Assembly (NCBI GenBank): GCA_016871255.1
Contig: VFZH01000019.1
Coordinates: 1-39,375, forward strand
Direction: 5' to 3'
Source of the DNA: Acidimicrobiia bacterium
GTDB lineage: Bacteria; Acidobacteriota; Vicinamibacteria; Vicinamibacterales; UBA2999
DNA length: 39,375 nt
Positions 11,666 to 38,746 of this stretch are shown here, piece by piece. The position numbers and the translations under genes were made by a program. Position 1 is the stretch's first letter; the number at the start of each line of letters is the position of its first letter. Under the pieces are notes generated by a model. The model saw only the letters and a program-made list of their open reading frames with translations, ran no database searches and was not told the DNA's origin.

Positions 11666-11824
11666 GGGCCCTGGCGGGAATAAGGTTGCCGACTCTCGGG
11701 CGGCGAGGCGCCCGGATCGCCAGGCGCGAGGAGGGAGCAGGCCGGGTGCCTGTGACCGTCGAGCAACGCCGCGAGGCGGGATGCATCGTCGGCCGAGATG
11801 GCAACCTTATTCCCGCCAGGGCCC
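11666..11824. repeat. 159-bp MITE-like element, copy 1
   Basis: The element begins GGGCCCTGGCGGGAATAAGG and ends in the exact inverse; the terminal inverted repeats are 25 bp and perfect (11666-11690 and 11800-11824). TAA stands directly on both sides (11663-11665, the receptor 1 stop codon, and 11825-11827), which looks like a 3-bp target duplication. An internal CGGGCG / CGCCCG hairpin (about 11696-11713) lies inside. A second copy of identical length and orientation is at 38588-38746, differing at eight positions. No transposase is encoded. As RNA it would fold into one long hairpin just after the stop codon. Confidence 0.85.
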
Positions 11825-11878
11825 TAACTGACCTTGGGTCGACTGCGCGGCTGGTGGACCTGCAGAAGCGGAGGAGCG

Positions 11879-13792
11879 ATGGCGACAGGCGTGGAAAGGC
11901 TGGTTGGTGCGGTGGCGGTTGCCGGGCTGGGGGGGGCGTTCCTCTTCGGCCCTGCCGACCCGGGTACACGACGTCCGGTCGCTCCCGCGCCCGTCGCGAC
12001 GCTGTCGGCTGCGCCCACTGCGCAGGACGTTCCGGCCAATCCCGAGCGGAACGCGTACTTCGGAGACGTGCACGTGCATTCGAGCTGGTCGCTCGACGCG
12101 TACACGCTTGGCGGCAACCGCGACGAACCGGACGTGGCGTACCGCTTCGGCCGCGGCGACACGATCCGCAGGCCGGACGGTTCCATCCTTGGCCCACTGG
12201 CCGTCCCGCTGGACTTCATGGCGGTCACGGATCACGACGCGTGGCTCGGAGAAGTGCATTCCTGCGTGGACACCAGCGACCAGGCCTACGACACGCCGAC
12301 CTGCAGGCAGGTGCGCGCGATGGAGGGGTTCGGTCAGCTGTACGGCAGGTTCGGGCGGCAGGGGCTCCGGCCGCCCGATATCTGCGGTGAAAGCGGGTAC
12401 GGCCCCGGCAACCGGTGCCTGGAGCGCGCCGGACACCTGTGGCACGAGATCCAGAAGAACGCGGACGCGTTCTACGAGCCGGGCACGTTCACGACGTTTG
12501 CAGCCTACGAGTGGACCGGTCAGCCCCCGGGCATCGGCCATCTGCACCGCAACGTGATCTTCCGCGGCGAAGCCGTTCCCGAGTGGGGAGGGTCGGCCGT
12601 CGAGATGCAGAACCGCCCTGAACGGCTCTGGGAGTGGCTGGAGAAGGCGTGTGTCAGCCCCTGCCAGGTGATGTCGATTCCGCACAACACGAACTGGAGC
12701 GAGGGCGTGTCCATGGCGCCGAACAACTCCGACGGCTCGCCGTTCACGGAGGAAATCCTGAAGCGGCGCGCCTGGGCGGAGCCGCTCGTCGAGGTCTTTC
12801 AGATCAAGGGCGGGTCGGAGTGCTATACGGGTCTCGGTACCACCGATGAGGAATGTGGCTTCGAGAAGTACTACGAGATCTGCAAGCCCGGGCAGGGATC
12901 CAATTGTGCCTACGCCTCCGACTACGTCCGGAACGCGTTGAAGAGCGGCCTCCGCATCGAGGAGGAGTTCGGCGTCAACCCGTTCAAGTACGGGCTGATT
13001 GCCAGCCCCGACGGTCACAAGAGCACACCCGGCGACGTCGATGAAGATGCGTTCGTCACCGAGTCCCCGAAGTTCGCGCACGACGGGTCTCTGGCGGGCC
13101 CCTACGGCGAACGGCAGGACGGCGGCAACATCACGAACCCCGGCGGCCTCGTCGGCGTGTGGGCCGATCGCAACACGCGGGAGTCGATCTTCGACGCGAT
13201 GAAGCGGAAGGAAACGTTCGCGACCAGCGGGCCGAGAATTCACGTGCGGTTCTTCGGCGGGTGGGCCTACCCGAACGACCTCCACAGCCGGAGCGACGTG
13301 GTGGGCCAGGCAGACGCCGGTGGCGTGCCGATGGGCGGAGACCTGCCGTCCCGGCCCCCGACCGCTGGCGCACCGCGGTTCGTCGTCTGGGCGACGAAGG
13401 ACGCCCGTTCCGCGAACCTGCAGAAGGTGCAGATCGTCAAGGGCTGGTCGTCTGGAGGTGAGACCCACGAGCGTGTCTACGACGTCGCCTGTGCCGATGG
13501 CCTGACGCCTGATCCGAACACACACACGTGCACCGACAACGGCGCGAGAGTGGATGTGACCACCTGCAACATCACGGCAGGCAAGGGGGCGGCGCAGCTG
13601 AGCACGACGTGGACCGATCCCGAGTTCTCGCCGGCCGATCGCGCGTTCTACTACGTGCGCGTGCTCGAGAACCCCACCTGCCGGTGGACGACGCATCGGG
13701 CGCTCGCTCGCAAGTCACCCATCCCGGAGCCATCGACGATCAAGGAGCGGGCCTGGAGCTCGCCGATCTGGTACACCCCGCCTTCACAGTAG
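11879..13792 (+). CDS. Exported DUF3604 (PHP-like metallohydrolase) protein
   Basis: 637-residue exported protein. A short basic start and hydrophobic segment (LVGAVAVAGLGGAFLFG, about 8-24) are followed by a Pro/Ala linker. The DUF3604 domain then opens with FGDVHVHSSWSLDA (61-74), whose HxH is the first metal signature of the PHP superfamily, and continues with FMAVTDHDAWLGE. Further His/Asp segments include SIPHNTNWSEG and GLIASPDGHKS. Two Cys pairs in the C-terminal part suit a periplasmic location. The ATG at 11879 has GGAGG four bases before; an upstream in-frame ATG at 11834 has no such site. It is the first gene of an operon with parvulin and three HupE-like genes (7 bp gap, then overlaps). 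The reaction is unknown; a metal-dependent phosphoesterase or hydrolase is inferred from fold. Confidence 0.88.
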   Translation: MATGVERLVGAVAVAGLGGAFLFGPADPGTRRPVAPAPVATLSAAPTAQDVPANPERNAYFGDVHVHSSWSLDAYTLGGNRDEPDVAYRFGRGDTIRRPDGSILGPLAVPLDFMAVTDHDAWLGEVHSCVDTSDQAYDTPTCRQVRAMEGFGQLYGRFGRQGLRPPDICGESGYGPGNRCLERAGHLWHEIQKNADAFYEPGTFTTFAAYEWTGQPPGIGHLHRNVIFRGEAVPEWGGSAVEMQNRPERLWEWLEKACVSPCQVMSIPHNTNWSEGVSMAPNNSDGSPFTEEILKRRAWAEPLVEVFQIKGGSECYTGLGTTDEECGFEKYYEICKPGQGSNCAYASDYVRNALKSGLRIEEEFGVNPFKYGLIASPDGHKSTPGDVDEDAFVTESPKFAHDGSLAGPYGERQDGGNITNPGGLVGVWADRNTRESIFDAMKRKETFATSGPRIHVRFFGGWAYPNDLHSRSDVVGQADAGGVPMGGDLPSRPPTAGAPRFVVWATKDARSANLQKVQIVKGWSSGGETHERVYDVACADGLTPDPNTHTCTDNGARVDVTTCNITAGKGAAQLSTTWTDPEFSPADRAFYYVRVLENPTCRWTTHRALARKSPIPEPSTIKERAWSSPIWYTPPSQ

Positions 13793-13799
13793 GAGACGC

Positions 13800-14669
13800 G
13801 TGCCAGTGCCACGCCTTGTACGTGCTGCGCTCCGGGAGCCGCTGGTTCATTTCCTGGTAGCCGGCGCGTTCATCCTTGCCGCCAGCGCCTGGCTGAACCC
13901 GTCCGAGGATCGCCACAACCGCATTCACGTCACCGCGGACCGGATCCAGCAGCTGCACGAGACCTGGTCGACGCAGTGGGGCGAGCCGCCCGACGAGGCG
14001 CAGTTGCGCACCCTCGTGGAGGACTTCATCCGCGAAGAGGTGCTGTACCGGGAGGCCCTGGCCTCCGGCCTCGACCAGAACGACTCGATCATTCGACGAC
14101 GCCTGGCCCAGAAGATCGAGTTCCTGGCCCAGGGGGTCACGATGACCGAACCGACGGACGAGGAACTCCGGGCGTTCTTCGATCAGCACCGCGCGCGCTA
14201 CGAGATTCCGGCCGGCGTGTCGTTCGAGCACGTCTTCTTTGGAGATGCGAATGGCAAGGGCAGCGGACGGGGCGCTTCTGTTGGCGAGATCCTGGCGGGA
14301 CTGCGTTCGGGGGGCGTGCCGGCGGCCAAGGTGAGAGGCCTGGGGGACCCCTTCATGCTGCAGCTCGAGTATCCGCTCCAGACACAGACGGAGGTGCGGA
14401 ACCTTTTCGGCGTTGAGTTCGCGGAGCGCCTGTTCACCCTCCCGGTCGGCGAATGGGCCGGGCCTGTCCGGTCCGCGTACGGCCAGCACCTCGTCCGGGT
14501 GCGTGAGTCGGAAGACCGGCGTCTTCCGGACCTGCATGAAGTGCGCGATCAGGTTGCCACCGAGCTGAAGAGGCAGCGCGCGCAGGCGCTGGTCGACACG
14601 TATTACGAGCGTCTTCGCGAGAGGTACGTCGTCGAGATCGACGAAGACCTTCTGACGGAGCGGCCGTGA
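13800..14669 (+). CDS. Membrane-anchored parvulin-type peptidyl-prolyl isomerase
   Basis: 289 residues from a GTG start with AGGAG four bases upstream, 7 bp after the DUF3604 stop. A single N-terminal helix (VHFLVAGAFILAASAWL, residues 16-32) anchors it to the inner membrane. A SurA-like helical region follows (EEVLYREALASGLDQND), and a parvulin domain occupies about residues 135-245 (YEIPAGVSFEHVFF ... VGEWAGPVRSAYGQHLVRVRES). Members assist folding of exported proteins. Its place between an exported enzyme gene and HupE genes suggests it is dedicated to products of this operon. The GTGA overlap (14666-14669) with the next gene implies translational coupling. Confidence 0.85.
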   Translation: MPVPRLVRAALREPLVHFLVAGAFILAASAWLNPSEDRHNRIHVTADRIQQLHETWSTQWGEPPDEAQLRTLVEDFIREEVLYREALASGLDQNDSIIRRRLAQKIEFLAQGVTMTEPTDEELRAFFDQHRARYEIPAGVSFEHVFFGDANGKGSGRGASVGEILAGLRSGGVPAAKVRGLGDPFMLQLEYPLQTQTEVRNLFGVEFAERLFTLPVGEWAGPVRSAYGQHLVRVRESEDRRLPDLHEVRDQVATELKRQRAQALVDTYYERLRERYVVEIDEDLLTERP

Positions 14670-15694
14670 GGCGGTCTCCGGCGCGCGTTGGGACGACACT
14701 TGGCATCGCGGCCGTGGCTGCCTGCCTGGTGACACCGGTCGTCGCACATGCCCATACGACGCTACCTGCCTATCTCGAGTTGAACGAGCTTACGGCAGGG
14801 GCGTTCGACCTGGCCTGGAAGGTGCCGGCCGTCGAGGGGCCACCTCCGCCGATCTACCCCGAGTTCCCGCGGCACTGTGCGCTGGCCGCGCCTCTCTCCG
14901 AGACGCAGGCGGCAGGTTCCATCCTGATGCGTGGCGTGCTCCAGTGTGGCGCAGAGGGTCTCGCCGGGCAGTCGATCGAGATTGCGGGGCTCCGCACCAC
15001 GATCATGGAGACCGTCGTGCGGCTGGCGTTTCTGGATGGCACGAGCGCGATGCGCGTGCTCAGGCCGTCCGAGCCGTCGTTCGTGGTGACGCAGGCCGCG
15101 CCGGGTGCAGACAGCGTGGACGCGCGCGGGCACTTCCGGCTCGGCGTCGATCACATCCTGTCCGGCATCGACCACCTGCTCTTCGTGTTCGGTCTGCTAC
15201 TACTCGTGCGCGGCACCGGCCGGTTGCTGAAGGCGATCACGTCCTTCACCGTGGCGCACAGCATCACGCTTGGACTGGCCGCGCTCGGGGTGGTCCGGCT
15301 CGCGCCGGCACCGATCGAGGCGGTCATCGCGCTGAGCATCGTGTTCCTGGCGGTCGAGGTCGCGCAGGAACGGCGGGGTGTCGCGGGCCTGAGCCAGCGG
15401 AAGCCGTGGCTGGTGGCGTTTGCGTTCGGCCTGCTGCACGGCTTCGGCTTCGCCGGCACGTTGTCGCAGATCGGCCTTCCGGCTGGCGACATCCCGATGG
15501 CGCTGCTGTACTTCAACGTGGGCGTCGAGGCCGGTCAGGTCGGCTTCATCGTCGTGTGCCTGGCCGTGATGGCCTCGCTGCGCACCCTCGATCTTCGGCC
15601 ACCCGCGTGGGCACACGCCGTGCCGGCCTACGTGATCGGTCCCTTGGCGTCCTACTGGTTCCTCGAGCGATGCGTATCCGCCTTCACGTCCTGA
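14666..15694 (+). CDS. HupE/UreJ-like membrane protein 1 with periplasmic N-terminal domain
   Basis: 342 residues from a GTG start that overlaps the parvulin stop by four bases. A signal peptide (GIAAVAACLVTPVVAHAH) and a periplasmic domain of about 120 residues precede the membrane part. That part starts with LGVDHILSGIDHLLFVFGLLLL and continues with FTVAHSITLGLAALG and FGLLHGFGFAGTL. The DH, AHS and HGFGFAG motifs identify the HupE/UreJ_2 family, proposed metal (Ni/Co) permease or accessory proteins. About six to seven membrane helices are visible. It is the largest of three HupE-like genes in tandem. Confidence 0.88.
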   Translation: MRRSPARVGTTLGIAAVAACLVTPVVAHAHTTLPAYLELNELTAGAFDLAWKVPAVEGPPPPIYPEFPRHCALAAPLSETQAAGSILMRGVLQCGAEGLAGQSIEIAGLRTTIMETVVRLAFLDGTSAMRVLRPSEPSFVVTQAAPGADSVDARGHFRLGVDHILSGIDHLLFVFGLLLLVRGTGRLLKAITSFTVAHSITLGLAALGVVRLAPAPIEAVIALSIVFLAVEVAQERRGVAGLSQRKPWLVAFAFGLLHGFGFAGTLSQIGLPAGDIPMALLYFNVGVEAGQVGFIVVCLAVMASLRTLDLRPPAWAHAVPAYVIGPLASYWFLERCVSAFTS

Positions 15695-16290
15695 CGGTCT
15701 TCGCCCGCCTGGTGCGGGCGATCCTTTCACTGGCACTGGTGCTGCTGCCTTCCGCAGCCGACGCCCACACCGGCGCGGAGGTCACGGTCGGATTGTGGAG
15801 CGGCATGTTGCACCCGCTGACCGGGCTCGATCACACGATGGCGATGGTGGCGGTTGGCATCTGGGGCGCGCAGCTGGGCCGCCCGGCGATCTGGCTCCTG
15901 CCCGTGACGTTCCCGCTGGTGATGGCCCTTGGCGGCGTGGTGGGTATCCGTCAGGTCCCGTTCCCGTTCGTCGAGGTCGGGATCGCGGCGTCGGCTGTCG
16001 TGCTGGGTGCCATGGTGCTGGGCGCGGTCAGGGCCTCACTTCCGGTCGCGACGGCGGTCGTCGGGTTCTTCGCCGTCTGCCATGGGTACGCCCACGGCGC
16101 GGAGCTGCCGCACGCGGCGAATCCGTTCGCGTATGGCGTCGGATTCGTCCTTGTGACCGGGCTCCTGCACGTGTGCGGCATCGCGATCGGCCTGCTGAAG
16201 CGATGGCCCGCAGGTGCGCTGGCGATGCGGGCGTGCGGGGCCGTCATCGGCGTCGCAGGGCTGTATCTGCTTGGAGGACACCTCGGGTGA
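15670..16290 (+). CDS. HupE/UreJ-like membrane protein 2 (classical, His motifs present)
   Basis: 206 residues starting at an ATG inside the last 25 bases of the previous gene. A signal-like segment (ILSLALVLLPSAADAH) is followed by the HupE signature MLHPLTGLDHTMAMVAVGIWGAQLG and, later, CHGYAHGAELP, LLHVCGIAIGLL and a final helix. The histidines of LDH and HGYAHG are the presumed metal ligands of the family. It has six or so helices with the expected HupE length of about 200 residues. The stop overlaps the next start as GTGA. HupE proteins move nickel or cobalt for hydrogenase or urease; neither enzyme is encoded here, so the metal user is probably another envelope protein. Confidence 0.88.
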   Translation: MRIRLHVLTVFARLVRAILSLALVLLPSAADAHTGAEVTVGLWSGMLHPLTGLDHTMAMVAVGIWGAQLGRPAIWLLPVTFPLVMALGGVVGIRQVPFPFVEVGIAASAVVLGAMVLGAVRASLPVATAVVGFFAVCHGYAHGAELPHAANPFAYGVGFVLVTGLLHVCGIAIGLLKRWPAGALAMRACGAVIGVAGLYLLGGHLG

Positions 16291-16883: not shown

Positions 16884-16959
16884 GAGACATCCCGGTGCCC
16901 GTCGTGTCGCCTTGTCCGTCTGGTGGTTCCTGCTGGTGTCGATCGTGCCGGCGGCGGCG

Positions 16960-17199: not shown

Positions 17200-17310
17200 C
17201 GCCCTCGGCCTGACACGTCAGCCAATGACCGGCTCGCACGCGATGAAGGTCGGCTTCACGATGCTCCAGGGGTCGCAGGAGTACAACATCCGTTTCTTCC
17301 CGTCCCTCCT

Positions 17311-17353: not shown

Positions 17354-17457
17354 TCCACGGCTGACTGTGGCATGCGGGGGGACGCGGGTGGGGCCGTGCA
17401 GGGTGCTGTACGGACCCTGTGTCCTCGTGCCTGCGGCCGAGCCTTGAAGGAGGCGGT

Positions 17458-20427
17458 ATGAGGCTGTCGAGGGTCGTCCTGGCGGCGACGATGGTCGTTG
17501 CGTGCGCGGCGGCGGGTTGGGCACAGTCGGCCACCACCGGTGCGATCGCCGGGGTGGTGCGGGACACGACGGGGGCGGTGCTGCCGGGTGTGACGGTGGA
17601 GGCATCGAGCCCGGCGCTCATCGAGAAGGTCCGGGTCGCGGTGACCGACGACCAGGGCAACTACAAGATCATCGATCTCCGGCCGGGCGCCTACGCGGTG
17701 ACGTTCACGCTGCCCGGCTTCTCGACCTTCAAGCGCGAAGGGCTCGAGCTGACCACCGGCTTCACGGCCACGGCGAACGCCGACATGCAGGTCGGCTCGC
17801 TGGAGGAAACCGTGACGGTGTCGGGCGCCAGCCCGGTCGTGGACATCCAGAACGTCCGCCAGCAGCGCGTGCTGTCTCGCGAGCTCCTCGACAGCGTGCC
17901 CACGAACAAGACGTTCCAGGGCTTTGCCGCGCTGACGCTGGGCGCTACGCCGGCGGGGACGGGGCACGACGTGGGCGGCAACCGCGGTGACGGCCTCGGC
18001 GGCTTCGGCTTCCACGGCAGCCGGACCGCGGATCAGCGGCTGACCATGGACGGCATGCTGTTCACCGGGCTCGGCGGCGGAGCCCAGATGCGCAACATCG
18101 TGGTGAACCAGGCGTTCGTGCAGGAGACGACGCTCGAGGTGCGTGGCGCCAGCGCGGAGAGCGAAGCCGGTGGCGCGCACATCAACGTGGTGCCGAAGGA
18201 CGGCGGCAACGCCTTCTCGTCCACGTTCACGGGGGCGGGGAGCGGATCGGCGCTGCAGGCGACGAACATCACCGAGGAACTCCAGGCGCGCGGCCTGCCG
18301 CCGCAGACCTCGTCGAAGAAGATCTGGGACGTGGGCGGTGGCATGGGCGGGCCCATTCGCCAGGACAAGCTGTGGTACTACACGGCGATCCGCTGGTGGG
18401 GCGCGCAGACGAACCTGCCGGGCGCCTTCTACAACGCGAACCAGGGCAAGTACGTCGGCGATCCCGACAGCGGCGTGACGATCTACCAGCGCGACACCAG
18501 CCGCCCGGCGTTCCAGAACATCTACAACCGCGACTACAGCGTGCGGTTCACCTGGCAGGCCACGCAGAAGAGCAAGTACGCCATCTCGACGAGTCTCCAG
18601 GACAACTGCAACTGCACGCTCGGCAGCGGGCCCTCGGCGCCCGAGTCGTACCGGAGCCCGACCTACTGGCCGATCAGCCTGACGCAGCTGACCTGGAACT
18701 ACCCGGCGAGCAACCGGGTGCTGATCGACGCCGGCACCTCGTTCCTGTACAACAACTACACGAACCTGCCCGAGCCGGAAGTCAGCCCGCGCGACATCGC
18801 GCTCCGCGAGCTGTCGAACGGCATGCAGTACAACGCCCGGGCGGCGGGGCTGTGGCTGAACGACTACGGCTACAAGAACCTGACGAACCAGTGGAACAGC
18901 CGCGTGGCGATCTCCTACGTCACCGGCTCGCACGCCTTCAAGGCCGGCCTGACGTACCTCCAGGGCTGGCAGCAGTACAACGTGCGCCTGAACGACCGGC
19001 CGATGGAGTACCAGCTGCGGAACTTCGTGCCGGTGTCGCTGCGGATGTGGGCGTCGCCGTTCGAGGCGCGCGGCCGCTTCAGCCCGAACATGGGGCTCTA
19101 CGCGCAGGATCAGTGGACGATCAGCAGGCTGACGCTGAACCTGGGCGTGCGTTACGACTACCTGCACGGGATCAACCCGTCGCACGAGAGCCCGGCCGGG
19201 CCGTTCGTGCCGGCGCGGTCGTTCCCGACGGTCGACGCGTTGCCGAGGTTCAGCGACCTCGCGCCGCGCGTGGGCGCCGCCTACGACCTGTTTGGCGACG
19301 GCAAGACGGCCGTCAAGGTGTCGCTGGGCCGGTACGTCGAGCTGGCCAGCATCTGGACGCTGACGTACAACACCAACCCCATGGCGCAGATCGCGCAGTT
19401 CTCCGATCGCACCTGGAACGACGCGAACCGCAACTACGTGCCCGACTGCAACCTGCTCGACCCGAGCGCCAACGGGGAGTGCGGGCGCGGGTCCACCGCC
19501 ACGCTGGGGCAGCTCCGGATCATCCAGCAGTACGACAAGCAGGTGACCGAGGGCTTCGGCAACCGGCCGATGAACTGGCAGGCGGGCATGTCGGTGCAGC
19601 ACGAGATCGCCGCGAACATGGCGCTGAACTTCGGCTACTACCGGACGTGGTTCGGCAACTTCACGGTGAACGACAACCGCGCCACGACGCCGGCCGACTT
19701 CGATCCGTACTGCGTGACGGCGCCGACCGACACGCGGCTGGGCGATGCGAGCGGCGCGCGGCTGTGCGGCCTCTACGACATCAACCCGTCGAGGTTCGGG
19801 CAGCAGGACAACATCTTCGTGCAGCACGCCACGTTCGGCGAGCGCACGGAGGTCTACAACGGCGTCGACCTGGGGCTGAGCGCGCGGTTCGGCGAAGGCG
19901 GGCTGGTGCAGGGCGGCGTGTCCACGGGCCGCACGCAGTACGACAACTGCGCCGTGGTCGACTCCCCGCAGGCGGCGCGCGAGGGCTTCTGCAACTACGA
20001 TCTGCCGTTCGAGGGGCAGACGCAGTACAAGCTGTCGTTCGTGTACCCCCTGCCGCTGGACGTGCGCTTCAGCGGGACGTACCAGAACCTGCCGGGCGCG
20101 GCCTACGGCGCGAACTTCGTCGTGACCAACGCCCAGATTGCGCCGTCGCTCGGCCGCAACCTGGCGGCGGGCGCGGGTGGCACGGTGATCGTGGACATCC
20201 TGCCGCCGAACAGGCTGTTCGAGGAGCGGCTGAGCCAGCTCGACCTCCGCCTCACGAAGATCTTCCGGTTCGGGCGCGGACGGCTGCAGGGGATGTTCGA
20301 CATCTACAACATCTTCAACGCCAACACCGTGCTGGGGCTGAACTCCCGGTTCGGCGCCGCCTGGCGGACACCCAGCCAGGTGCTCGCCGGCCGGCTGTTC
20401 AAGTTCGGCGGGCAGTTCGACTTCTAG
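17458..20427 (+). CDS. TonB-dependent receptor 2, Oar-like
   Basis: 989-residue outer-membrane receptor. Layout: signal peptide (VVLAATMVVACAAAGWAQ), CarboxypepD_reg-like domain (TTGAIAGVVRDTTGAVLPGV to KREGLELT), plug with LEETVTVSGASPVVD and IQNVRQQRV, and a barrel ending in GGQFDF with terminal Phe. The loop motif YCVTAPTDTRL...RLCGLYDINP is shared with receptors 1 and 3. The ATG at 17458 has AAGGAGG four bases before; an upstream in-frame ATG (17419) lacks this. The sequence is markedly similar to receptor 3 in domains and loop motifs, so they are probably paralogs with different ligands. It stands alone; a purine-rich repeat tract begins 13 bp after its stop. Confidence 0.93.
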   Translation: MRLSRVVLAATMVVACAAAGWAQSATTGAIAGVVRDTTGAVLPGVTVEASSPALIEKVRVAVTDDQGNYKIIDLRPGAYAVTFTLPGFSTFKREGLELTTGFTATANADMQVGSLEETVTVSGASPVVDIQNVRQQRVLSRELLDSVPTNKTFQGFAALTLGATPAGTGHDVGGNRGDGLGGFGFHGSRTADQRLTMDGMLFTGLGGGAQMRNIVVNQAFVQETTLEVRGASAESEAGGAHINVVPKDGGNAFSSTFTGAGSGSALQATNITEELQARGLPPQTSSKKIWDVGGGMGGPIRQDKLWYYTAIRWWGAQTNLPGAFYNANQGKYVGDPDSGVTIYQRDTSRPAFQNIYNRDYSVRFTWQATQKSKYAISTSLQDNCNCTLGSGPSAPESYRSPTYWPISLTQLTWNYPASNRVLIDAGTSFLYNNYTNLPEPEVSPRDIALRELSNGMQYNARAAGLWLNDYGYKNLTNQWNSRVAISYVTGSHAFKAGLTYLQGWQQYNVRLNDRPMEYQLRNFVPVSLRMWASPFEARGRFSPNMGLYAQDQWTISRLTLNLGVRYDYLHGINPSHESPAGPFVPARSFPTVDALPRFSDLAPRVGAAYDLFGDGKTAVKVSLGRYVELASIWTLTYNTNPMAQIAQFSDRTWNDANRNYVPDCNLLDPSANGECGRGSTATLGQLRIIQQYDKQVTEGFGNRPMNWQAGMSVQHEIAANMALNFGYYRTWFGNFTVNDNRATTPADFDPYCVTAPTDTRLGDASGARLCGLYDINPSRFGQQDNIFVQHATFGERTEVYNGVDLGLSARFGEGGLVQGGVSTGRTQYDNCAVVDSPQAAREGFCNYDLPFEGQTQYKLSFVYPLPLDVRFSGTYQNLPGAAYGANFVVTNAQIAPSLGRNLAAGAGGTVIVDILPPNRLFEERLSQLDLRLTKIFRFGRGRLQGMFDIYNIFNANTVLGLNSRFGAAWRTPSQVLAGRLFKFGGQFDF

Positions 20428-20440
20428 CGTGACGCTTGGC

Positions 20441-20540
20441 GAAGTGGAAAAGTGGAAAAGTGGAAGAGTGGAAAAGTAAAGTCGGGAGTCGGAAGGTCGA
20501 AGTGCGGAAGTAAGTGAGAAGTTGGAAAGCAGGAGGGGGG
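20441..20540 (+). repeat. Purine-rich AAGTGGAA octamer array, left arm
   Basis: Octamers AAGTGGAA repeat four times with one G change (GAGTGGAA), then a diverged purine-rich stretch that ends GAAGTTGGAAAGCAGGA. Read in reverse, the tract at 22071-22236 has the same 8-mer array and a matching diverged part. The two therefore form inverted arms around the IS256-family element. Confidence 0.75.
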
Positions 20541-22033
20541 ACTGTCCGGAATTTCGTGTGTGAAGCGGGTTGACGGCGTCGTTCTCTTTCTTCTGTCTTC
20601 TTCTCCGCAAGCGATGAGGCGTGTGGGCGCTGTGGGAAACCGCGTTCTGTGCGGTTTTCCAAGTCGCTGTGGGCGCGTTCTGTGCGTCCATAGTGACGGC
20701 AGCGTCCATGCGCTCCGGGCATTTTACGTCTGGGGCGCGAGAAAGCGATCTTCGTACAGGATCGCGAAATGACGCATCGCGGTTTTCCCGTGAATGGCGC
20801 CGCGCGCCCATTTCGCCGTGATGTGGCGGAGCGCGAGCCCAATCAGCTTGGTGGCGGCTTCGTCGCTGGGAAAATGGCCGCGCGTCTTGATGATCTTGCG
20901 CAGCTGCGCGTGGACACTCTCCAGCGCGTTGGTCGTGTCGATCACCCGCCGCACGTCGGGGGAAACGCCAAGAACGGAATCACGTGCGTCCAGGCGCGCC
21001 GCCACGACGCGACGACGGTCGGAAACGTCGTGCCCCAAGGGCCGCGTGCAACGTCGTCGAGCGCGGCGGCAGCGGCCTCCGCGTTCGGCGCGGTATCAAT
21101 TGGGCGAAGGGCCTTCGCCAACGGCTTCCGCTCTTTCCAATTGGCGACGTCGAGCGTGTGCCGAATCAGGTGCACGATGCAGGTCTGGCGCGTCGTCGCC
21201 GGATACACCGCCGCGAGCGCCTCGCTCATCCCCTGCAGGCCATCGGTCACGGCGATGAGGATGTCGCGGCACCCGCGCGTTTTCAGATCGCTGACGACCG
21301 TCAGCCAGCATGTCGCGCCTTCGGTCTGCTCGATCCACAGGCCGAGGATGTCGCGGCTCCCGTCCGGCAGGACCGCCAGCGCCAGATAGAGGGCCTGGCT
21401 GCGCACCGTCGCCTCGTCGCGAAGCTTCACGCGCAGCGCATCGAAGAACACGACGGGATACATCGCCTCGAGCGGCCGGCTTTGCCACGCGGTGACTTCC
21501 GCGACGATGCCGTCCGTCACCGTGCTGATCAGATCGGGCGACACCTCCACGCCATACATGTCCGCGAGGACACCTTGGATTTCGCGCACCGTCATCCCAC
21601 GCGCGTAGAGCGCCAGAATCTTGTCGTCGAAGCCCGTGAAGCGGCGCTCGTGTGTCGCGATGAGCCGTGGCTCAACGCTCCCGTCGCGATCGCGCGGCAC
21701 GTCGATCGCGAGCGGACCGTCGTCGGTCAGCACCGTCTTGCCGCCCGTCCCGTTCCGGTGATTCGTCGTGTCGCCCGGTTTCGTGCCGCCCGGCGGGTAG
21801 CCCACATGGTGCGTGAGCTCGCCGCCCAGCGCGCGCTCGATAATCGCCTTCTTGAAGCGACGCACCGCGGCGTCGAGCTCCTCAGGCGAGATTGGCCCTT
21901 GTCGCACGAATTGGTCGAGGATTTCCGAGAGGATCGGCGCCAGCGGGGCGTCAGGCATTAAGGCTCTCCGTTCTGCGGGGCATAGAGTCTCCTCATGGTA
22001 TGCCCCACACACGAAATTCCTGATACCCTCCCC
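20535..22033 (-). mobile_element. IS256-family insertion sequence, degenerate
   Basis: The ends carry an inverted repeat with the identical 15-base core GGAATTTCGTGTGTG (20548-20562; inverse at 22006-22020) and weaker similarity outward to G-rich tips. The size is about 1.5 kb, near the family norm. It contains one transposase gene, frameshifted, and a 160-bp non-coding part near the left end with a hairpin (20634-20660, GGGAAACCGC / GCGGTTTTCC around GTTCTGT). An 8-9 bp target duplication could not be assigned because both flanks are simple repeats. Borders are approximate. Confidence 0.7.
20724..21958 (-). pseudogene. IS256-family (mutator-type) transposase, frameshifted
   Basis: The reading frame from the Met at 21958 (MPDAPLAPILSEILDQ) gives a normal IS256 N-terminal and catalytic region: FFDALRVKLRDE with the first Asp, AVTDGLQGMSEAL with the second Asp, and CIVHLIRHTLD. 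It stops at 20942 after VIPFLAFPPTCGG. The continuation is in another frame: SPDVRRVIDTTNALESVHAQLRKIIKTRG with the catalytic Glu, ending FAILYEDRFLAP. The break lies in a run of five C (near 20960 on the + strand, GGGGG) where six would restore the frame. Without frameshifting the enzyme lacks its DDE glutamate. A sequencing error in the homopolymer cannot be excluded. Confidence 0.85.
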
Positions 22034-22070: not shown

Positions 22071-22236
22071 CCCACTTTCCACTTTCCACTTTCCACTTCC
22101 CACTTTCCACTTTTCACTTCCCACTTCCCACTTCCCACTTCCCACTTCCCACTTACTTCCGACTTCACCCTTTCTACTTCCACCTTTACTGTTCCACTCT
22201 TCCACTTTTCCACTTTTCCACTTCTCCACTTCTCCC
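22071..22236 (-). repeat. Pyrimidine-rich CACTTCC heptamer and CCACTTTT octamer arrays, right arm
   Basis: On the + strand CACTTTC/CACTTCC heptamers repeat about twelve times (22071-22155). A diverged part follows, then TTCCACTT octamers (about 22190-22236). The octamer part is the inverse of the array at 20441. The 353 bp between the transposase start and the next gene hold the IS right end and this tract, and no gene. Confidence 0.75.
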
Positions 22237-24078: not shown

Positions 24079-24080
24079 CG

Positions 24081-29046: not shown

Positions 29047-32018
29047 TGAAGACGATGCGTGCGGCCGTGGCGCTGTGCGTTCCGGCTCTGATGGTCTGCC
29101 CGATCGCGGCGTGGAGCCAGTCGACAACGACGGGCGCCATAGCCGGCGTCGCCAGGGATGCAACCGGCGCCGTGTTGCCGGGTGTGACCGTCGAAGCGGC
29201 CAGTCCGGCTCTCATCGAGAAGGTGCGGACCGTCGTGACGGACGACGGCGGCGAATACAAGATCATCGATCTCCGTCCAGGGACCTACACGGTCACGTTC
29301 ACCCTGTCCGGGTTCGGTACGTTCAGGCGGGAGGGGATCGAGCTGTCGGCGGGCTTCACTGCGGGTGTGAACGCCGACATGCGCGTGGGCGCCATCGAGG
29401 AAACGGTCACCGTGACGGGCGCCAGCCCGGTCGTCGACGTCCAGAACGTCCGCACGCAGACGCTGCTGTCGCGCGAGACGCTCGACACGCTGCCGACGGG
29501 CAAGACGGTGAGTGCCTTCGCGACGCTGACGCTGGGGACGGGTGGGTTCGATCGCCCGGTGTTCGACACCGGTGGAAGCAAGGCCGAGATGAACCTCGGG
29601 TTCGGGGTGCACGGCAGCAAGGCTGGCGACGGCCAGATCAACCAGGACGACATGCTGGCGACGAACAACAGCGGCTTCGCGGCCCGCCAGAACCAGATCA
29701 ACCAGGCGGCCGTGCAGGAGATCGCCATCGAGACGCGCGGGATCTCCGCCGAGAGTCCGTATTCCGGCGTCCGGATCAACGTCGTCCCGAAGGAAGGTGG
29801 GAACGAGTTCTCGCTGTCGTTCAGCGTCAGCGGCACGGGCCCCGCCCTGCAGGGCTCGAACCTGACCGACGAGATCCGCTCCCGGGGCGTGAACGACCAG
29901 GGCAAGGTGCGCAAGGTCTACGACGGAGGCGTCGGGGTCGGCGGTCCGATCGCGCACGATCGGCTCTGGTTCTTCACGGCACACCGCTGGTGGGGGGCCT
30001 CGGAGTACAACGCGGGGCGCTACTTCAATGCGACGCCCCACACGCGGTTCTACACCCCGGATTTCGGTCGGCAGGCCTACAACGAGCAGATCAACAGGGA
30101 CAATCAGGGCCGTTTCACGTGGCAGGTGTCGCAACGCAACAAGATCAGCGCGTTCACGAGCTACCAGGACAACTGCAGCTGCTACAAGGTGTCGCAGGCG
30201 CTCGACACGAATCGGTCGCCGGATGCCGGTCTTCACACGCGGTACGCCCCGCAGGTCCTGACGCAGGCGACGTGGAAGTGGCCGGCCACGAGCCGCCTGC
30301 TGGTCGAGGCCGGCACCACCTATCTGTACGCCGAGGCCCGAAGCATTCGGCCGGACGAGAGCAGCCCGACCGACATCGCGTACCACGAGCTGACGACAGG
30401 CTTCAAGTGGGGAGCGAAGGCGGAGGGCCTCGGGATCAACGACTACACGGGCAAGGCGCCCGGCCTGAACAACCAGGCCACGCAGCGGTTCGCGGTGTCG
30501 TACGTCACCGGCGCCCACGCCTTCAAGTCCGGCGTCACCCTGCTCCAGACGCTCGGTCAGAGCAGCGGCGAGCTGAACGACCCTCCGGTCCAGTACGGGC
30601 TCCGGAACGGGCTGCCGGCGCAGATCACGGAGTGGGCGTCGCCGTTCTTCAGCCGGAGCAGCACCCGGCAGTTGAGCCTCTTTGCGCAGGATCAGTGGAC
30701 GGTCCGTCGCGTGACGCTCAACCTGGGGCTCCGGTTCGAGCACCGCGTGGGGACCGCGGAGGCCGTCCGCATCGAGGCCGGGATGTTCCGCGCCGCGGCC
30801 GACTTCCCGGAAGTGTCGGACATCCCGAACTGGAAGGACGTGTACCCGCGCGTCGGCGCCGCGTTCGACCTGTTCGGCGACGGCAAGACGGCCGTCAAGG
30901 GTTCGATCGGCCGCTTCGCGACGGGCGGCGTCAGCGCCGGCAACGCGCCCGTGTCGAGGATTGCCCAGAGCGCCACCCGAACCTGGAACGACGCCAACGC
31001 CAACTTCGTTCCCGACTGCCAGCTGACGAATCCCCAGGCGAACGGCGAGTGCGGCCGCATCAGCAATCTCAACCTCGGCAATCTCGTGCCGGGGACGACC
31101 TGGTCGGACGAGCTGGTCAAGGGATTCGGCGTCAGCCCGTACTCCTGGCAGGCGTCATTGAGCGTCCAGCACGAACTGGTCGAGAACGTCGCACTGAATG
31201 CGGGCTACTACCGCACGTGGTACGGAAACTTCCGGGCGACGGACAACCTGGCGGTCACCCCCGAGGACTACAGTCCGTACTGCATCACGGCACCGCGCGA
31301 CGCTCGCCTGCCGGGGGGCGGCGGGAACCAGCTGTGCGGGTTGTACGACGTCAGTCCCGCTAGGTTCGGACAGGTCAACAATCTCATCGTCCCTGCGTCG
31401 CGGTTCGGCAGCCCCTCCGAGGTGTACAACGGGTTCGAAGTCGCCCTCAGCACGCGCTGGGGCGGGGGGCGGCTGCTGCAGGGCGGGGTGAGTCTTGGAC
31501 GCACGGTCGAAGACAACTGCTACGTCGTCGATTCTCCGCAGCAGCAGCGGCCCGGATTCTGCGAGGTGGTGCTGCCGTGGTCCAGGACGGTCCAGACCAA
31601 GCTGGCCGGCATCTACCCGCTCCCCTGGGGCATGCAGGCGAGCGCGACCGTCCAGAACTTCCTGCCCATGAGCGTGTCGCTGTCGGGAACGAACATCGTG
31701 GCTGCGACGCTGGTCGTTCCCAACTCCCAGATCCAGGGTCTGGGGCGGTCGCTGGCATCGGGCGTGAACGGGACGGTGTCCGTTCCGCTGGTCCCGTCGA
31801 ACACCGTCTTTCAGGAGCGGTTGACGCAGTTGGACCTGCGCCTGACCAAGAGCCTCCGGCTGGCGGGGGCGCGCGTGCAGGCCATGATCGACTGCTACAA
31901 CGCGTTCAATACGTCCAACATCCTCGAGATGAACCAGTCGTACGGCGCCAACTGGTTGCGCCCGCTGACGCTTCTCGGAGGACGGCTCGTCAAGGTCGGC
32001 GCCCAGGTGGACTGGTAG
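29046..32018 (+). CDS. TonB-dependent receptor 3, Oar-like
   Basis: 990 residues. The ATG at 29046 overlaps the stop of the module gene, and AGGAGGGG (29033-29040) inside that gene is its ribosome binding site, so translation is probably coupled. Layout: signal peptide (AVALCVPALMVCPIAAWSQ), CarboxypepD_reg-like domain, plug (IEETVTVTGASPVVD, VQNVRTQTLLS), and barrel ending GAQVDW with terminal aromatic residue. The two-cysteine loop YCITAPRDARLPGGGGNQLCGLYDVSP is shared with receptors 1 and 2. It is convergent with the response regulator gene across a strong hairpin. The ligand is unknown. Confidence 0.93.
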   Translation: MKTMRAAVALCVPALMVCPIAAWSQSTTTGAIAGVARDATGAVLPGVTVEAASPALIEKVRTVVTDDGGEYKIIDLRPGTYTVTFTLSGFGTFRREGIELSAGFTAGVNADMRVGAIEETVTVTGASPVVDVQNVRTQTLLSRETLDTLPTGKTVSAFATLTLGTGGFDRPVFDTGGSKAEMNLGFGVHGSKAGDGQINQDDMLATNNSGFAARQNQINQAAVQEIAIETRGISAESPYSGVRINVVPKEGGNEFSLSFSVSGTGPALQGSNLTDEIRSRGVNDQGKVRKVYDGGVGVGGPIAHDRLWFFTAHRWWGASEYNAGRYFNATPHTRFYTPDFGRQAYNEQINRDNQGRFTWQVSQRNKISAFTSYQDNCSCYKVSQALDTNRSPDAGLHTRYAPQVLTQATWKWPATSRLLVEAGTTYLYAEARSIRPDESSPTDIAYHELTTGFKWGAKAEGLGINDYTGKAPGLNNQATQRFAVSYVTGAHAFKSGVTLLQTLGQSSGELNDPPVQYGLRNGLPAQITEWASPFFSRSSTRQLSLFAQDQWTVRRVTLNLGLRFEHRVGTAEAVRIEAGMFRAAADFPEVSDIPNWKDVYPRVGAAFDLFGDGKTAVKGSIGRFATGGVSAGNAPVSRIAQSATRTWNDANANFVPDCQLTNPQANGECGRISNLNLGNLVPGTTWSDELVKGFGVSPYSWQASLSVQHELVENVALNAGYYRTWYGNFRATDNLAVTPEDYSPYCITAPRDARLPGGGGNQLCGLYDVSPARFGQVNNLIVPASRFGSPSEVYNGFEVALSTRWGGGRLLQGGVSLGRTVEDNCYVVDSPQQQRPGFCEVVLPWSRTVQTKLAGIYPLPWGMQASATVQNFLPMSVSLSGTNIVAATLVVPNSQIQGLGRSLASGVNGTVSVPLVPSNTVFQERLTQLDLRLTKSLRLAGARVQAMIDCYNAFNTSNILEMNQSYGANWLRPLTLLGGRLVKVGAQVDW

Positions 32019-35666: not shown

Positions 35667-37006
35667 GGTTGACCCGCACGGCCCTTCACCGGCGGACGCT
35701 CCTGCGCGGTGCCGGCGCCACGCTCGCCCTGCCGCTGCTCGACGCCATGGTGCCGGCCCTCACGCCGGTGGCGAAGACGGCCGCGCGCGCGGTGCCGCGT
35801 CTCGGCTTCTTCTACATGCCGAACGGCGTCGCCCAGCGCTACTGGGAGCCGGAGGGTACGGGCGGCGGGGACTTCACCTTCTCGCCGATTCTCAAGTCCC
35901 TGGAGCCGTTCCGCGAGCGCGTCGTCGTTCTCTCGGGGCTGGCGAACCCGGCCGCCATCTCGACGACGCAGGGGTCGGGGCCGCACACGCGGGCGCACGC
36001 GGTGTGGCTGAACGGCGTGACGCCGAAGTGGACGGAAGGCGCCGACTTCCGGTCGGGCAAGACGATCGACCAGTTCGCCGCCGACGAGCTGGGCGCGGAC
36101 ACGCCGCTCCGGTCGCTCGAGATCGCGCTCGAGCCGAACTACATGATCGGGAGCTGCGAGCTGGGCTACAGCTGCGTCTACATCAACAGCACCTCCTGGC
36201 GGTCGCCGACCATGCCGCTGCCGATGGAGAACAACCCGCGGGTGGTGTTCGAGCGGCTGTTCGGCGACGGCGGGACGGTGGAGGCGCAGCGCGCGCGGCT
36301 GCGGCAGAACCGGAGCATCCTCGACGCGGTGAAGGAGGAGGCGGCGGCGCTCGACCGGAAGCTGGGTGCGGGCGATCGCGCGACGCTGGACCAGTACCTC
36401 GGCGCCATTCGCGACGTGGAGCGGCGCATCGAGGCCACCGAACGGCAGCGCGAGACGACGCCGCTGCCCGACCTGGAACGCCCACTGGGCATCCCGTCCA
36501 CGTTCGACGAGCACGCGAAGCTGATGATGGACCTGCAGCTGCTCGCCTGGCGGGCGGACATCACGCGCGTGGCCACGTTCCAGATCGGCCGCGAGCAGAG
36601 CAACCGCACCTATCCGGAGGTCGGCTGCCCCGAGGGGCACCACGACCAGTCGCACCGGGGCGACGCCGAGAACCTGCTCATCTACTCGAAGGTGAACGCG
36701 TACCACATGATGCTGTTCGCGCGGTTCGTGGAGCAGATGCGCGACACACCCGACGGCGACGGCTCGCTGCTGGATCACTCGATGGTGCTGATCGGCAGCG
36801 GCATGGGCGACGGTGCGCGGCACAGCCCGATGGACCTGCCGCTGGTGCTCGTGGGCGGCGCCAACGGGCGTCTCGAAGGCAACCGCCACCTGGTGTACCC
36901 GCCGCGCACGGTCCCGATGATGAACCTGGGCCTGAGCATGCTCGACAAGGTGGGCGTGAAGGTGGATGAGATTGGCGACAGCACGGGGCGGCTCACGGAC
37001 CTGTAG
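35663..37006 (+). CDS. Tat-exported DUF1552 protein
   Basis: 447 residues; AGGAG stands nine bases before the ATG, which overlaps the DUF1592 stop by four bases. The N-terminus has a twin-arginine-type signal (LHRRTLLRGAGATLALPLLDAM). The body is the DUF1552 family: GFFYMPNGVAQRYWEPEG, LSGLANP, HTRAHAVWLNGV, SCVYINSTSWRSPTMPLPMENNP, and late HHDQSHRG and LIGSGMGDGARHSPMDLPLVLVGG, which recall sulfatase/alkaline-phosphatase-like DUF1501 proteins. Families DUF1592 and DUF1552 nearly always travel together; the function is unknown. Confidence 0.9.
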   Translation: MRLTRTALHRRTLLRGAGATLALPLLDAMVPALTPVAKTAARAVPRLGFFYMPNGVAQRYWEPEGTGGGDFTFSPILKSLEPFRERVVVLSGLANPAAISTTQGSGPHTRAHAVWLNGVTPKWTEGADFRSGKTIDQFAADELGADTPLRSLEIALEPNYMIGSCELGYSCVYINSTSWRSPTMPLPMENNPRVVFERLFGDGGTVEAQRARLRQNRSILDAVKEEAAALDRKLGAGDRATLDQYLGAIRDVERRIEATERQRETTPLPDLERPLGIPSTFDEHAKLMMDLQLLAWRADITRVATFQIGREQSNRTYPEVGCPEGHHDQSHRGDAENLLIYSKVNAYHMMLFARFVEQMRDTPDGDGSLLDHSMVLIGSGMGDGARHSPMDLPLVLVGGANGRLEGNRHLVYPPRTVPMMNLGLSMLDKVGVKVDEIGDSTGRLTDL

Positions 37007-37045
37007 CGCCCGGCTGCAGCTGGCCTAAGGAGACTCGGAGAACCC

Positions 37046-38587
37046 ATGCGTCAGAGACACCTGATCGTGGTCGCCGCCATGCTGGCGTTCGTGGCGATTG
37101 GCGGCCTGCACGCCACGACGCCGGAGCCGCCGGTCGTGCAGGCGGCGCGTGATGGTGATCTCGAGGCGCTCCGTGCCATCGTCCAGCGGGGCGACGGCGT
37201 GGCGGACCGGACACCCGATGGCACGACGGCCCTGCACTGGGCGGCGTCGCGCGGCGACCTGGACGCCGTCATCGTGCTGCTGGCTGCGGGCGTCGATGCG
37301 CGGGCGGCCAACCGGTACGGCGTCCGGCCGCTGTCGCTCGCGGCGGCCAGCGGCAGTGGGGAGGTCATCGATCGCCTGCTGGCTGCGGGCGCCAGGGTGG
37401 ACGACGAGCTGGCGGGTGGCGAGACACCGCTGATGACGGCGGCCCGGAGCGGCAGTGTCGCAGCGGTGAAGGTGCTGCTGGCTCGCGGCGCCGACCCGAA
37501 CGCGCGCGAGGCGACACGAGGCCAGACGGCGCTGATGTGGGCGGCGGCCGAGGGGCACGGCGGCGTCGTGCGCGCGCTGGTCGAAGGCGGCGCCGACGTG
37601 GCGGCGCGCTCGCGCGAGGTCGACTTCCGCAGCTACACGCCGATGCGCGGCGGCTCGGCGATCGGCGACGTGGCGACCGGCGTGACGATCGAGTTCTCGC
37701 CGCTGATGTTCGCGGTTCGTGCGGGCGCCCGGGACGGGGTGGCCGCGCTGATCGATCTCGGCGCCAACGTCAACGAGACACTGCCCGACGGGACGAGCGC
37801 GCTCGTGGTGGCCGCCATCAACGCGAACTGGGACGTGGGCCTGCTGCTGCTCGAGCGCGGTGCCGACCCGAACGCGATGGCGCAGGGATGGAATGCGCTG
37901 CACCAGGTGGCGCGCACGCGCACCTACAACCTGGGCAACGTGCCGCATCCCCTGGCGGATGGCTCGGTGTCGAGCCTCGCCTTCGCGCAGGCGCTCGTCG
38001 ATCGGGGCGTGGACACCGACGCGCAGATGACCGGGGAGATTCGCAACGACGGCTACCGCTTCAACATGAGCCGCATCGGCGCCACGGCGTTCCTGATTGC
38101 GGCCAAGGGGGCGGATGCGCCGATGATGCGGCTGCTGGCGGCTGCCGGCGCGGATGCCGGGATCGCGAACGAGGACGGCACGACTGCGCTGATGGCGGCG
38201 GCCGGTGTGGACCTCGACTTCCTCGGCGAGGACACCGGCACGCACGAGGATGCCTTCGAGGCGCTGAAGGTGGCGCTGGAGCACCCGCACGACGTGAACG
38301 CGGCCAACGCCAGCGGCGACACGCCGCTGCACGGCGCCGCGCGCCGGGGCGCCATCCCGATCGTCGAGGAGCTGATCGCCCGCGGCGCCAGGCTCGACGT
38401 GACGAACAGGCGCGGGTGGACGCCGCTCACCGTGGCGCTGGGCCGCAAGAACGGCCGCCCCCTGTTCCTCAACGAGCAGCGTCAGTTCGCCGCCGCCGAG
38501 GTCATCCGTCGCGCGATGATCGAGCGCGGCATCGCGATCGAGGAAGACGCCGAGGCACTGGAACTGCTGAACCTGGCCAGCAGGTAA
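37046..38587 (+). CDS. Exported ankyrin-repeat protein
   Basis: 513 residues; AAGGAG is found upstream of the ATG, and the gene starts 39 bp after the DUF1552 stop, so it is the third gene of that operon. A signal peptide (LIVVAAMLAFVAIGGLHA) precedes roughly nine ankyrin repeats, e.g. DGTTALHWAASRGDLDAVIVLLAAGVD, GQTALMWAAAEGHGGVVRALVEGGAD and GDTPLHGAARRGAIPIVEELIARGA. A non-repeat insert interrupts them near residues 190-220. It is probably a periplasmic scaffold for the DUF1592/DUF1552 pair. Its TAA stop is directly followed by the second 159-bp element. Confidence 0.9.
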   Translation: MRQRHLIVVAAMLAFVAIGGLHATTPEPPVVQAARDGDLEALRAIVQRGDGVADRTPDGTTALHWAASRGDLDAVIVLLAAGVDARAANRYGVRPLSLAAASGSGEVIDRLLAAGARVDDELAGGETPLMTAARSGSVAAVKVLLARGADPNAREATRGQTALMWAAAEGHGGVVRALVEGGADVAARSREVDFRSYTPMRGGSAIGDVATGVTIEFSPLMFAVRAGARDGVAALIDLGANVNETLPDGTSALVVAAINANWDVGLLLLERGADPNAMAQGWNALHQVARTRTYNLGNVPHPLADGSVSSLAFAQALVDRGVDTDAQMTGEIRNDGYRFNMSRIGATAFLIAAKGADAPMMRLLAAAGADAGIANEDGTTALMAAAGVDLDFLGEDTGTHEDAFEALKVALEHPHDVNAANASGDTPLHGAARRGAIPIVEELIARGARLDVTNRRGWTPLTVALGRKNGRPLFLNEQRQFAAAEVIRRAMIERGIAIEEDAEALELLNLASR

Positions 38588-38746
38588 GGGCCCTGGCCGG
38601 AATAGGGTTGCCGACTCCCGGGCGGCGAGGCGCCCGGATCGCTAGGCGCGAGGAGAGAGCAGGCCGGGTGCCTGTGACCGACGAGCAACGCCGCGAGGCG
38701 GGATGCATCGTGGGCCGAGATGGCAACCTTATTCCGGCCAGGGCCC
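38588..38746. repeat. 159-bp MITE-like element, copy 2
   Basis: Same length and orientation as copy 1 (11666-11824), with TAA on both sides (38585-38587, the ankyrin stop codon, and 38747-38749). Eight substitutions separate the copies. In the terminal stem one G-C pair of copy 1 is C-G here (changed on both sides) and one A-T pair is G-T, so pairing is kept. It lies 57 bp before the SemiSWEET start. Confidence 0.85.

Follow-up and report, generated by a model that had tools for sequence, protein, structure and literature searches.

Two copies of a hairpin element behind stop codons

The window, by which we mean the whole stretch of DNA analyzed (39,375 nucleotides), contains two copies of a short hairpin element in the same orientation, each placed directly behind a gene (Table 1). 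The open reading frame ended by the left TAA of copy 1 spans 8657–11665 (called gene 8720–11665) and encodes an outer-membrane β-barrel protein with a CarboxypepD_reg domain; the corresponding TAA of copy 2 ends an ankyrin-repeat reading frame at 37046–38587. Both copies have TAA on both flanks. They differ from each other at eight element positions (11, 18, 31, 56, 69, 94, 125, and 149), and the 25-bp terminal inverted repeat is perfect in copy 1 and matches at 24 of 25 positions in copy 2. Two of the stem pairs change between the copies, pair 11/149 from G-C to C-G and pair 18/142 from A-T to G-T. The two copies with their eight differences, inverted repeats, TAA flanks, and stem changes, and the identity of the left TAA with the stop codon of the preceding gene, had been reported in a preliminary description of the sequence and were confirmed here.

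Table 1 Features of the two element copies in the window
Feature	Position	Strand	Remarks
Hairpin element, copy 1	11666..11824	+	159 bp; belongs to the 39 intact copies of the genome
Hairpin element, copy 2	38588..38746	+	159 bp
Left target TAA, copy 1	11663..11665	+	Stop codon of the preceding outer-membrane protein gene
Right target TAA, copy 1	11825..11827	+	3-bp duplication; W of TWA agrees in 18/19 copies with TWA on both sides
Left target TAA, copy 2	38585..38587	+	Stop codon of the preceding ankyrin-repeat gene
Right target TAA, copy 2	38747..38749	+	
Left arm, copy 1	11666..11690	+	Terminal inverted repeat
Right arm, copy 1	11800..11824	+	
Left arm, copy 2	38588..38612	+	
Right arm, copy 2	38722..38746	+	
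Conserved core, copy 1	11698..11795	+	Limits approximate; alignment columns 35–132, mean pairwise identity 0.82 vs 0.49 in the outer arms
Conserved core, copy 2	38620..38717	+	Limits approximate; from the cross-genome alignment

Because element position 11 is commonly polymorphic in the host genome (7 of 38 copies depart from the consensus) and pair 11/149 also occurs there in mismatched states (G-G in 3 of 38 copies, C-C in 1 of 38), the two window copies are by themselves weak evidence of compensation. The case for it is made by the cross-genome alignment.

A dispersed and mobile family

The window pair belongs to a set of 39 intact copies delimited in the 3.9-Mb host genome, a copy being called intact when both arms and the core were found within 150–170 bp. 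The length is exactly 159 bp in 38 of the 39; mean pairwise identity is 0.958, and the median identity to the nearest neighbor is 0.98. With up to three mismatches allowed, the arm pattern matched the host genome 97 times and its reversed control 0 times. Together with the presence of 39 intact copies in one genome, this excludes chance resemblance. The unit thus has the short, non-coding build, the fixed length within the 70–300 bp range, the high copy number, and the terminal inverted repeats (25-bp arms) of a miniature inverted-repeat transposable element (MITE).

With the host genome counted in both samples, the family is represented in 37 of 297 sampled Acidobacteriota genomes and, within the relatives set, in 83 of 149, so that further copies, which the preliminary description had proposed to look for, are abundant. 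Four MAGs labelled Gammaproteobacteria also carry the element. The plasmids, phages, E. coli genomes, and viral contigs searched contained no match. In Rfam, elements from 10 sources gave no gathering-level match, and at E values up to 1 those from 4 sources gave two weak matches, neither of them over the element.

The element is mobile, as shown by its dispersal, its duplicated TWA (or TA/CTAG) flanks, and its presence or absence at orthologous sites. The empty-site evidence comes from related genomes: a copy in one relative (G302:C35) is missing from three others (G265, G316, and G273), each of which lacks the element plus 3 bp. At locus L172, and likewise at L176, two elements have a single TAA in common. 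At three orthologous sites that are filled, the copies differ at 0/159, 5/161, and 6/159 bases, at or below most alignable flank windows; this low divergence might point to in-place constraint or to recombination.

The target site and its relation to stop codons

Flanking triplets are identical in 19 of the 39 host copies and no longer agree in the other 20. When TWA is present on both sides, the two triplets are both TAA (12 copies) or both TTA (6 copies), with a single discordant copy. The identical triplets, the agreement of W, and the empty sites together identify a target site duplication. The target is TWA (TAA or TTA), with a preference for C-TWA-G, and CTAG in other subfamilies, where sliding of the flanks leaves the length of the duplication (2, 3, or 4 bp) ambiguous. 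The earlier proposal that the element targets TAA therefore stands as regards the duplication and the enrichment of stop codons, but the target is TWA in C-TWA-G (or CTAG) and not TAA as such.

No called gene is spanned by any of the 39 host copies or of 63 elements from relatives; a neighboring reading frame enters 5 of the latter. Stop codons are favored, yet they are not the target itself. In the host genome, 17 of 39 copies lie flush with a stop codon, compared with 16% of harmless TWA sites (p = 5e-5), and 22 do not. The relatives' elements are flush in 18 of 63 cases against 9.3% (p = 1e-5) when counted by the definition used for the null, or in 19 of 63 under a looser limit of ≤4 bp from the stop; restricting the count to the TWA class leaves 10 of 40 flush (p = 0.003). 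The stop-codon bias suggested by the window pair is thus a real enrichment, but most copies lie elsewhere between genes. Stop-flush copies are sense in 12 cases and antisense in 5 in the host genome, and 9 and 9 in relatives, with no clear orientation bias toward genes.

Conservation of the core and covariation of the stem

The cross-genome comparison is based on an alignment of 33 divergent elements (A2). From 69 delimited relatives' elements, the 58 with a length of 155–162 bp and a score ≥15 were clustered with one host copy at 93% into 34 representatives; A2 leaves out L191:1110-1269, and the limits of five other elements are shifted by one base.

The unit, about 157–163 bp overall, is an imperfect palindrome whose arms are replaced completely between subfamilies, whereas arm complementarity, the folded shape, and the core are kept. 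Mean pairwise identity over the 33 members is 0.82 in the core and 0.49 in the arms. In A2, the share of paired cells is 94.5%, compared with 76.8% in shuffles and 31–44% with slid partners, and two-sided changes occur in 31 of 48 pairs (17 of 34 among pairs outside the arms). Of 141 core loci, 67 have complementary arms, as opposed to 7 of 418 when right flanks were exchanged, and at least five arm types occur together in one MAG.

Covariation of this strength would also be expected of a putative structured RNA at mRNA 3' ends, selected for termination or message stability and spreading only as a by-product, which was the second reading offered in the preliminary description. The + strand fold is the more stable one in 66 of the 69 relatives' elements, G-T exceeds A-C among the arm mismatches of 52 of them (30 vs 11 distinct events), many host copies adjoin stop codons, and the copies at the three orthologous filled sites are well conserved. 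Within the host genome, however, distinct mutations at paired sites kept the pair in 12 of 45 cases, with 12.9 expected by chance, and distinct arm changes yield G-T and A-C equally (11 vs 11). An excess of G-T in the host arms (19 vs 5) was dropped, as it disappears in this count by distinct change. We infer that the host copies decay near-neutrally once inserted. Given this decay, and since stop-flush copies show no clear preference for either orientation, the covariation reflects the spread of the hairpin and not a function at each mRNA end. The many copies away from stop codons and the lack of an Rfam match over the element also speak against a selected RNA; a mild indication to the contrary comes only from the three orthologous pairs. 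A role at mRNA 3' ends is thus not supported, and we regard it as very improbable. Maintenance of the stem, which had been read from the window pair, is real across genomes, but copies within the host genome break pairs at the chance rate.

Search for a parent element and an enzyme

An ordinary MITE would have arisen by internal deletion from an insertion sequence of IS5 or another DDE type and would have its terminal repeats in common with that parent. The terminal inverted repeats, the near-constant length, and the 2–4 bp target duplication agree with such an origin. IS5-family groups produce TNA, TA, and YTAR duplications, and both the target and the duplication length of the element fit this family.

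However, the two whole assemblies searched, that of the host (G000) and G053, yielded no gene-carrying element that had the same ends. All 97 arm matches in the host genome pair at the element spacing or fall in enlarged, contig-edge, or truncated copies; two copies are enlarged and four are truncated inside contigs (C14, C24, C38, and C60). The 64 arm matches in G053 include, besides pairs and contig-edge arms, 12 single arms inside contigs, for which no partner arm (≤5 mismatches) was found within the next 3 kb or to the contig end. Nine of these 12 track the element through position 135–142 and then diverge, and five contigs end exactly at position 137, so the nine one-armed copies have the appearance of assembly joins and not of genuine truncations. 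When 12 arm types were sought in 142 fetched loci, arms far from a core belonged to interrupted, diverged, or truncated copies. The parent transposase with the same terminal repeats that had been anticipated was thus not found in either assembly; a parent may have been lost or left unassembled.

None of four DDE domain families was present in every copy-rich genome tested, most of these genomes being drafts in many contigs in which a single absence carries little weight. PF13586 reached E ≤ 1e-3 in 2 of the 34 panel genomes and exceeded the cut-off in none. PF01609 is represented in the host genome only by a broken gene and is absent from the copy-bearing G005, G055, G064, G047, and G099. PF13546 is absent from 20 of 25 genomes, including the host, and PF00665 from G047, G053, and G057 among 12 genomes. 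The IS5-type domains PF13586 and PF01609 were thus missing from several copy-bearing genomes. On visual inspection, the gene families that recur beside elements look unremarkable (regulators, TPR proteins, UvrA, outer-membrane proteins, and ankyrin proteins). As conservation moreover lies in the core and not in the ends, we consider descent from such an insertion sequence rather unlikely.

The whole element forms one hairpin with a strand preference and compensatory changes, as would be expected of a REPIN-like element that a Y1 (RAYT) transposase mobilizes in the form of single-stranded hairpin DNA, and the host genome has one Y1_Tnp gene. That gene, however, is flanked by its own unrelated GGGTCTGACCC repeats, and the best resemblance to the element in its vicinity lies more than 1 kb off and covers 32 bases at 78%. 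The two flanks carry an identical W in TWA, which is what a target duplication would leave, whereas IS200/IS605-type insertion is not known to make one. On the + strand of the element, both TAA and TTA occur as flanks. Movement by a Y1 enzyme is, in our judgment, very improbable.

Comparison with known systems

Bacterial MITEs (RUP, NEMIS, ERIC, Bcr1, Nezha, and QMITE2) are described as non-coding units of 70–300 bp with terminal inverted repeats and target duplications that often adjoin genes and fold into stable structures (PMC3733652, PMC10969869). The present element resembles them in all these respects. It differs in its conserved core and replaced arms, in the several arm types per genome, and in having no parent insertion sequence in G000 and G053. 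The greater conservation of the core than of the ends, the reverse of an ordinary MITE, is a point against a MITE-like reading.

REPINs are likewise small, mostly extragenic mobile hairpins with compensatory changes (PMC3116915), and GTAG REPs can provide a TAG stop codon to flanking ORFs (PMC3733652). Their ends are conserved and the spacer less so, the reverse of the present element, which in addition generates a target duplication and shows no link to the single Y1 gene of its host. By description, the β-proteobacterial repeat element BRE is similarly G+C-rich, usually intergenic, common to several genera, and sometimes found as neighboring copies, but it is shorter (75–91 bp) and often tandem (PMC3110155).

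A proposed model of hairpin-dependent spread

The dispersal, near-constant length, target duplication, and presence or absence at orthologous sites support the non-autonomous, MITE-like element put forward in the preliminary description. The element is probably mobile DNA of this anatomy whose spread depends on the hairpin and whose copies decay neutrally after insertion. An enzyme supplied in trans would cut the unit and insert it at C-T-(W)-A-G, a sequence that is rare at the 69% G+C of this genome and that frequently coincides with a stop codon. Selection would purge insertions that hit genes, and those flush with a stop would persist, as TAA, or TA together with a G from the element itself, supplies the stop. 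For propagation, the hairpin, consisting of complementary arms and a conserved core with internal loops, would have to form; source lineages would therefore keep the pairing and the core as arm sequences drift or are replaced, and inserted copies would decay as neutral DNA.

A bolder version, which we hold to be doubtful, is that the element represents a class of mobile DNA recognized by its single-stranded hairpin shape and conserved core instead of its end sequence, with the DDE-like 2–4 bp target duplication made by an undescribed enzyme. If true, shape recognition would account for arms that can vary freely provided they still pair, for the coexistence of several arm types in a genome, and for a possible passage of the element across phyla.

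The element is a widespread repeat of Acidobacteriota, of which we found no description in Rfam or in those parts of the literature that our search reached. Its conservation is inverted relative to known MITEs and REPINs, in that the ends, normally read by the transposase, are the changing part. Which enzyme moves it, and whether shape or sequence is read, is a testable question. A warning also follows for stem covariation, which is frequently read as proof that an RNA is functional: the requirements of a mobile element can produce it too. In the present case it is strong from lineage to lineage, yet none could be detected among the copies within a single genome.

Copies and target site

The element is a MITE-like mobile hairpin. 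The first description of the two copies in the window was reproduced in coordinates and length, in the eight differences, and in the terminal repeats and flanking TAA triplets, and at both the left TAA is indeed the stop codon of the preceding ORF.

Features of the window, the host genome (G000) and relatives (other G numbers); C, contig; L, fetched locus with local coordinates
Feature	Position	Description
Copy 1	11666-11824 (+)	159 bp
Copy 2	38588-38746 (+)	159 bp
ORF upstream of copy 1	8657-11665 (called gene 8720-11665)	OMP_b-brl_4 and CarboxypepD_reg domains
ORF upstream of copy 2	37046-38587	Ankyrin repeats
Three alike stretches	8738-9037; 17503-17802; 29097-29396	Close to called-gene starts; the outer two match the middle stretch at 69% and 73% identity; first lies inside the outer-membrane protein gene preceding copy 1
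Heptanucleotide arrays	20437-20503; 22071-22228	CCACTTT-like and complement; inverted, ~1.66 kb apart
ORF between the arrays	20942-22012 (-)	Enclosed by both
Enlarged copy	L061:2001-2515 (G000:C6)	515 bp
Enlarged copy	L064:2001-2357 (G000:C40)	357 bp
Y1 (RAYT) transposase gene	L202:1305-2105 (G000:C9)
Adjacent elements	L172 ~6083-6449	Different arms, opposite orientation
Adjacent elements	L176 ~5196-5603	Different arms, opposite orientation
Copy with element-free orthologous sites	G302 C35:42091-42249
Copy with element-free orthologous sites	G316:C1:2115860

In the host assembly (3.9 Mb in 243 contigs, the window being contig 19), BLAST gave at least 40 forward matches and an arm-pattern search 97 hits. 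Intact copies, defined by both arms and the core within 150-170 bp, numbered 39 distinct examples, not counting truncated copies, contig-edge copies and the two enlarged by another repeat. All but one (38/39) are exactly 159 bp long, and these 38 have a mean pairwise identity of 0.958 and a median nearest-neighbour identity of 0.98. The insert in both enlarged copies is a stretch common to another repeat of this genome, which a further copy (L003) adjoins.

With flanks oriented by the core, 18 of the 39 copies have TAA and 11 have TTA on the left, while 15 have TAA and 12 have TTA on the right. Identical triplets occur on both sides in 19/39 (12 TAA, 6 TTA, 1 CAA). TWA (TAA or TTA) stands on both sides in 19 copies, left equalling right in 18 of them, and the remaining copies have at least one side that is not TWA. 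Because C precedes the target in 23/39 and G follows it in 29/39, the preferred target is C-TWA-G; the proposed TAA duplication stands, but TAA is not the only target. Other subfamilies are flanked by CTA...TAG, where duplications of 2, 3 or 4 bp are indistinguishable.

Sites orthologous to the G302 copy lack the element plus 3 bp in G265 (flanks 93% identical), G316 (78%) and G273, whose left flank is partly rearranged. For the G316 copy, the orthologous sites in G302, G273 and G265 are likewise free of the element, at 79-80% identity, a divergence at which the exact junction cannot be placed. In L172 and again in L176, two adjacent elements have a single TAA in common, showing that an element has inserted at another copy's edge.

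Distribution

Further copies were expected in related genomes, and the element was matched in 83/149 genomes of the relatives set, the host included. A covariance-model search found it in 37/297 sampled Acidobacteriota genomes at E <= 1e-5 (host included), a lower bound because the filters were strict. A core-pattern search of GTDB genomes matched 87 stretches, seven of them in four MAGs labelled Gammaproteobacteria, one being Candidatus Rariloculus versatilis, and the others in records labelled Acidobacteria or Vicinamibacterales; mis-binned contigs are a possible source in single Gammaproteobacteria-labelled MAGs. Copies L122 and L123 have no left part. The element was not matched in the plasmids, phages, E. 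coli and viral contigs searched.

Anatomy and pairing

Among 33 divergent elements (93% cluster representatives), mean identity is 0.82 in the core and 0.49 in the outer arms, and a single MAG (NC_groundwater_58) holds at least five arm types. The consensus fold is one long hairpin with internal loops and 48 pairs, of which 31 show two-sided changes, extending across genomes the stem covariation suggested by the window copies. Helix 1 has such changes in 14/14 pairs, a figure biased upward because rows were picked by arm complementarity; helices 2-5, where rows were not selected on their pairing, have them in 17/34. The share of cells that are paired is 94.5%, against 76.8% in shuffles, which do not preserve relatedness, and 31-44% with slid partners. 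Arms are complementary in 67/141 core loci with sufficient flank, compared with 7/418 for exchanged right flanks. An A-T pair ~15 bases from the element end is nearly constant (31/33). Another small hairpin, GGGGTCCCCAACGCGGCAGCCGCGTTGGGG-like, recurs as an insertion inside the element (L148, L172, L176, L196, L324).

Across lineages, the + strand gives the better fold of the two strands in 66/69 elements, and arm mismatches across 52 elements comprise 30 distinct G-T and 11 A-C events. Both are indications, not proof, of folding as a single strand, and related elements are non-independent. Within the host genome, paired sites carry 45 distinct single changes, of which 12 kept the pair (12.9 expected), and distinct G-T and A-C changes were equal (11 each). 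The 38 copies carry 113 substitutions over 126 paired sites and 37 over 33 unpaired sites, rates we consider similar. Given no pairing signal within this genome, copies seem to decay once inserted, pairing being kept in the spreading lineages. Counting against such decay, three orthologous filled-site pairs differ at 0/159, 5/161 and 6/159 positions, with alignable flank windows differing by 0 to ~20%; the 0/159 pair could reflect recombination or constraint.

Gene context

Genes were called with a simple codon-usage caller. No copy spans a gene, either among the 39 of the host or among those 63 elements of relatives, out of 69, that have sufficient flank. The suspected stop-codon bias was borne out, its size being approximate because the caller is crude: 17/39 host copies touch a stop codon, against 16/98 harmless TWA sites, where insertion would not interrupt a called gene (144.5 kb; p 5e-5), and by the same definition 18/63 relatives' elements are flush, against 23/247 (p 1e-5). 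The stop is the duplicated triplet in ten host copies and TA plus the element's terminal G in seven. Among relatives, the TWA class is flush in 10/40 (p 0.003) and the non-TWA class in 8/23, with harmless CTAG sites flush in 6/42. Part of the enrichment could come from removal of promoter insertions. Orientation to the flush gene is sense in 12 and antisense in 5 host copies, and 9 and 9 in relatives.

On visual inspection, certain elements seem to supply neighbouring genes with codons. In L227 a called gene begins at an ATG inside the right arm (near 2133); in L235 and L236, from two related species, the upstream frame enters the left arm for a few codons and ends at the same stop.

Mobilisation

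A parent with the same terminal repeats had been proposed; neither the host assembly nor that of G053 yielded a larger element with such ends. One-armed copies inside G053 contigs (L309, L311-L313, L317, L321, L323, L326) leave the element at positions 135-142 and are probably assembly joins at the repeat, since other G053 contigs end at position 137. The single Y1 transposase gene found in the host is flanked by repeats unrelated to the element, palindromic GGGTCTGACCC, apparently a REP system of that gene's own. The host also has one broken DDE_Tnp_1 gene and two rve matches. None of four DDE domain families tested tracks the element across genomes, and none was seen in G047, which has at least six copies, single absences being weak in draft assemblies.

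Within the searches made, this element family is new, and it is unusual in that its core and shape are conserved while its ends are exchanged.
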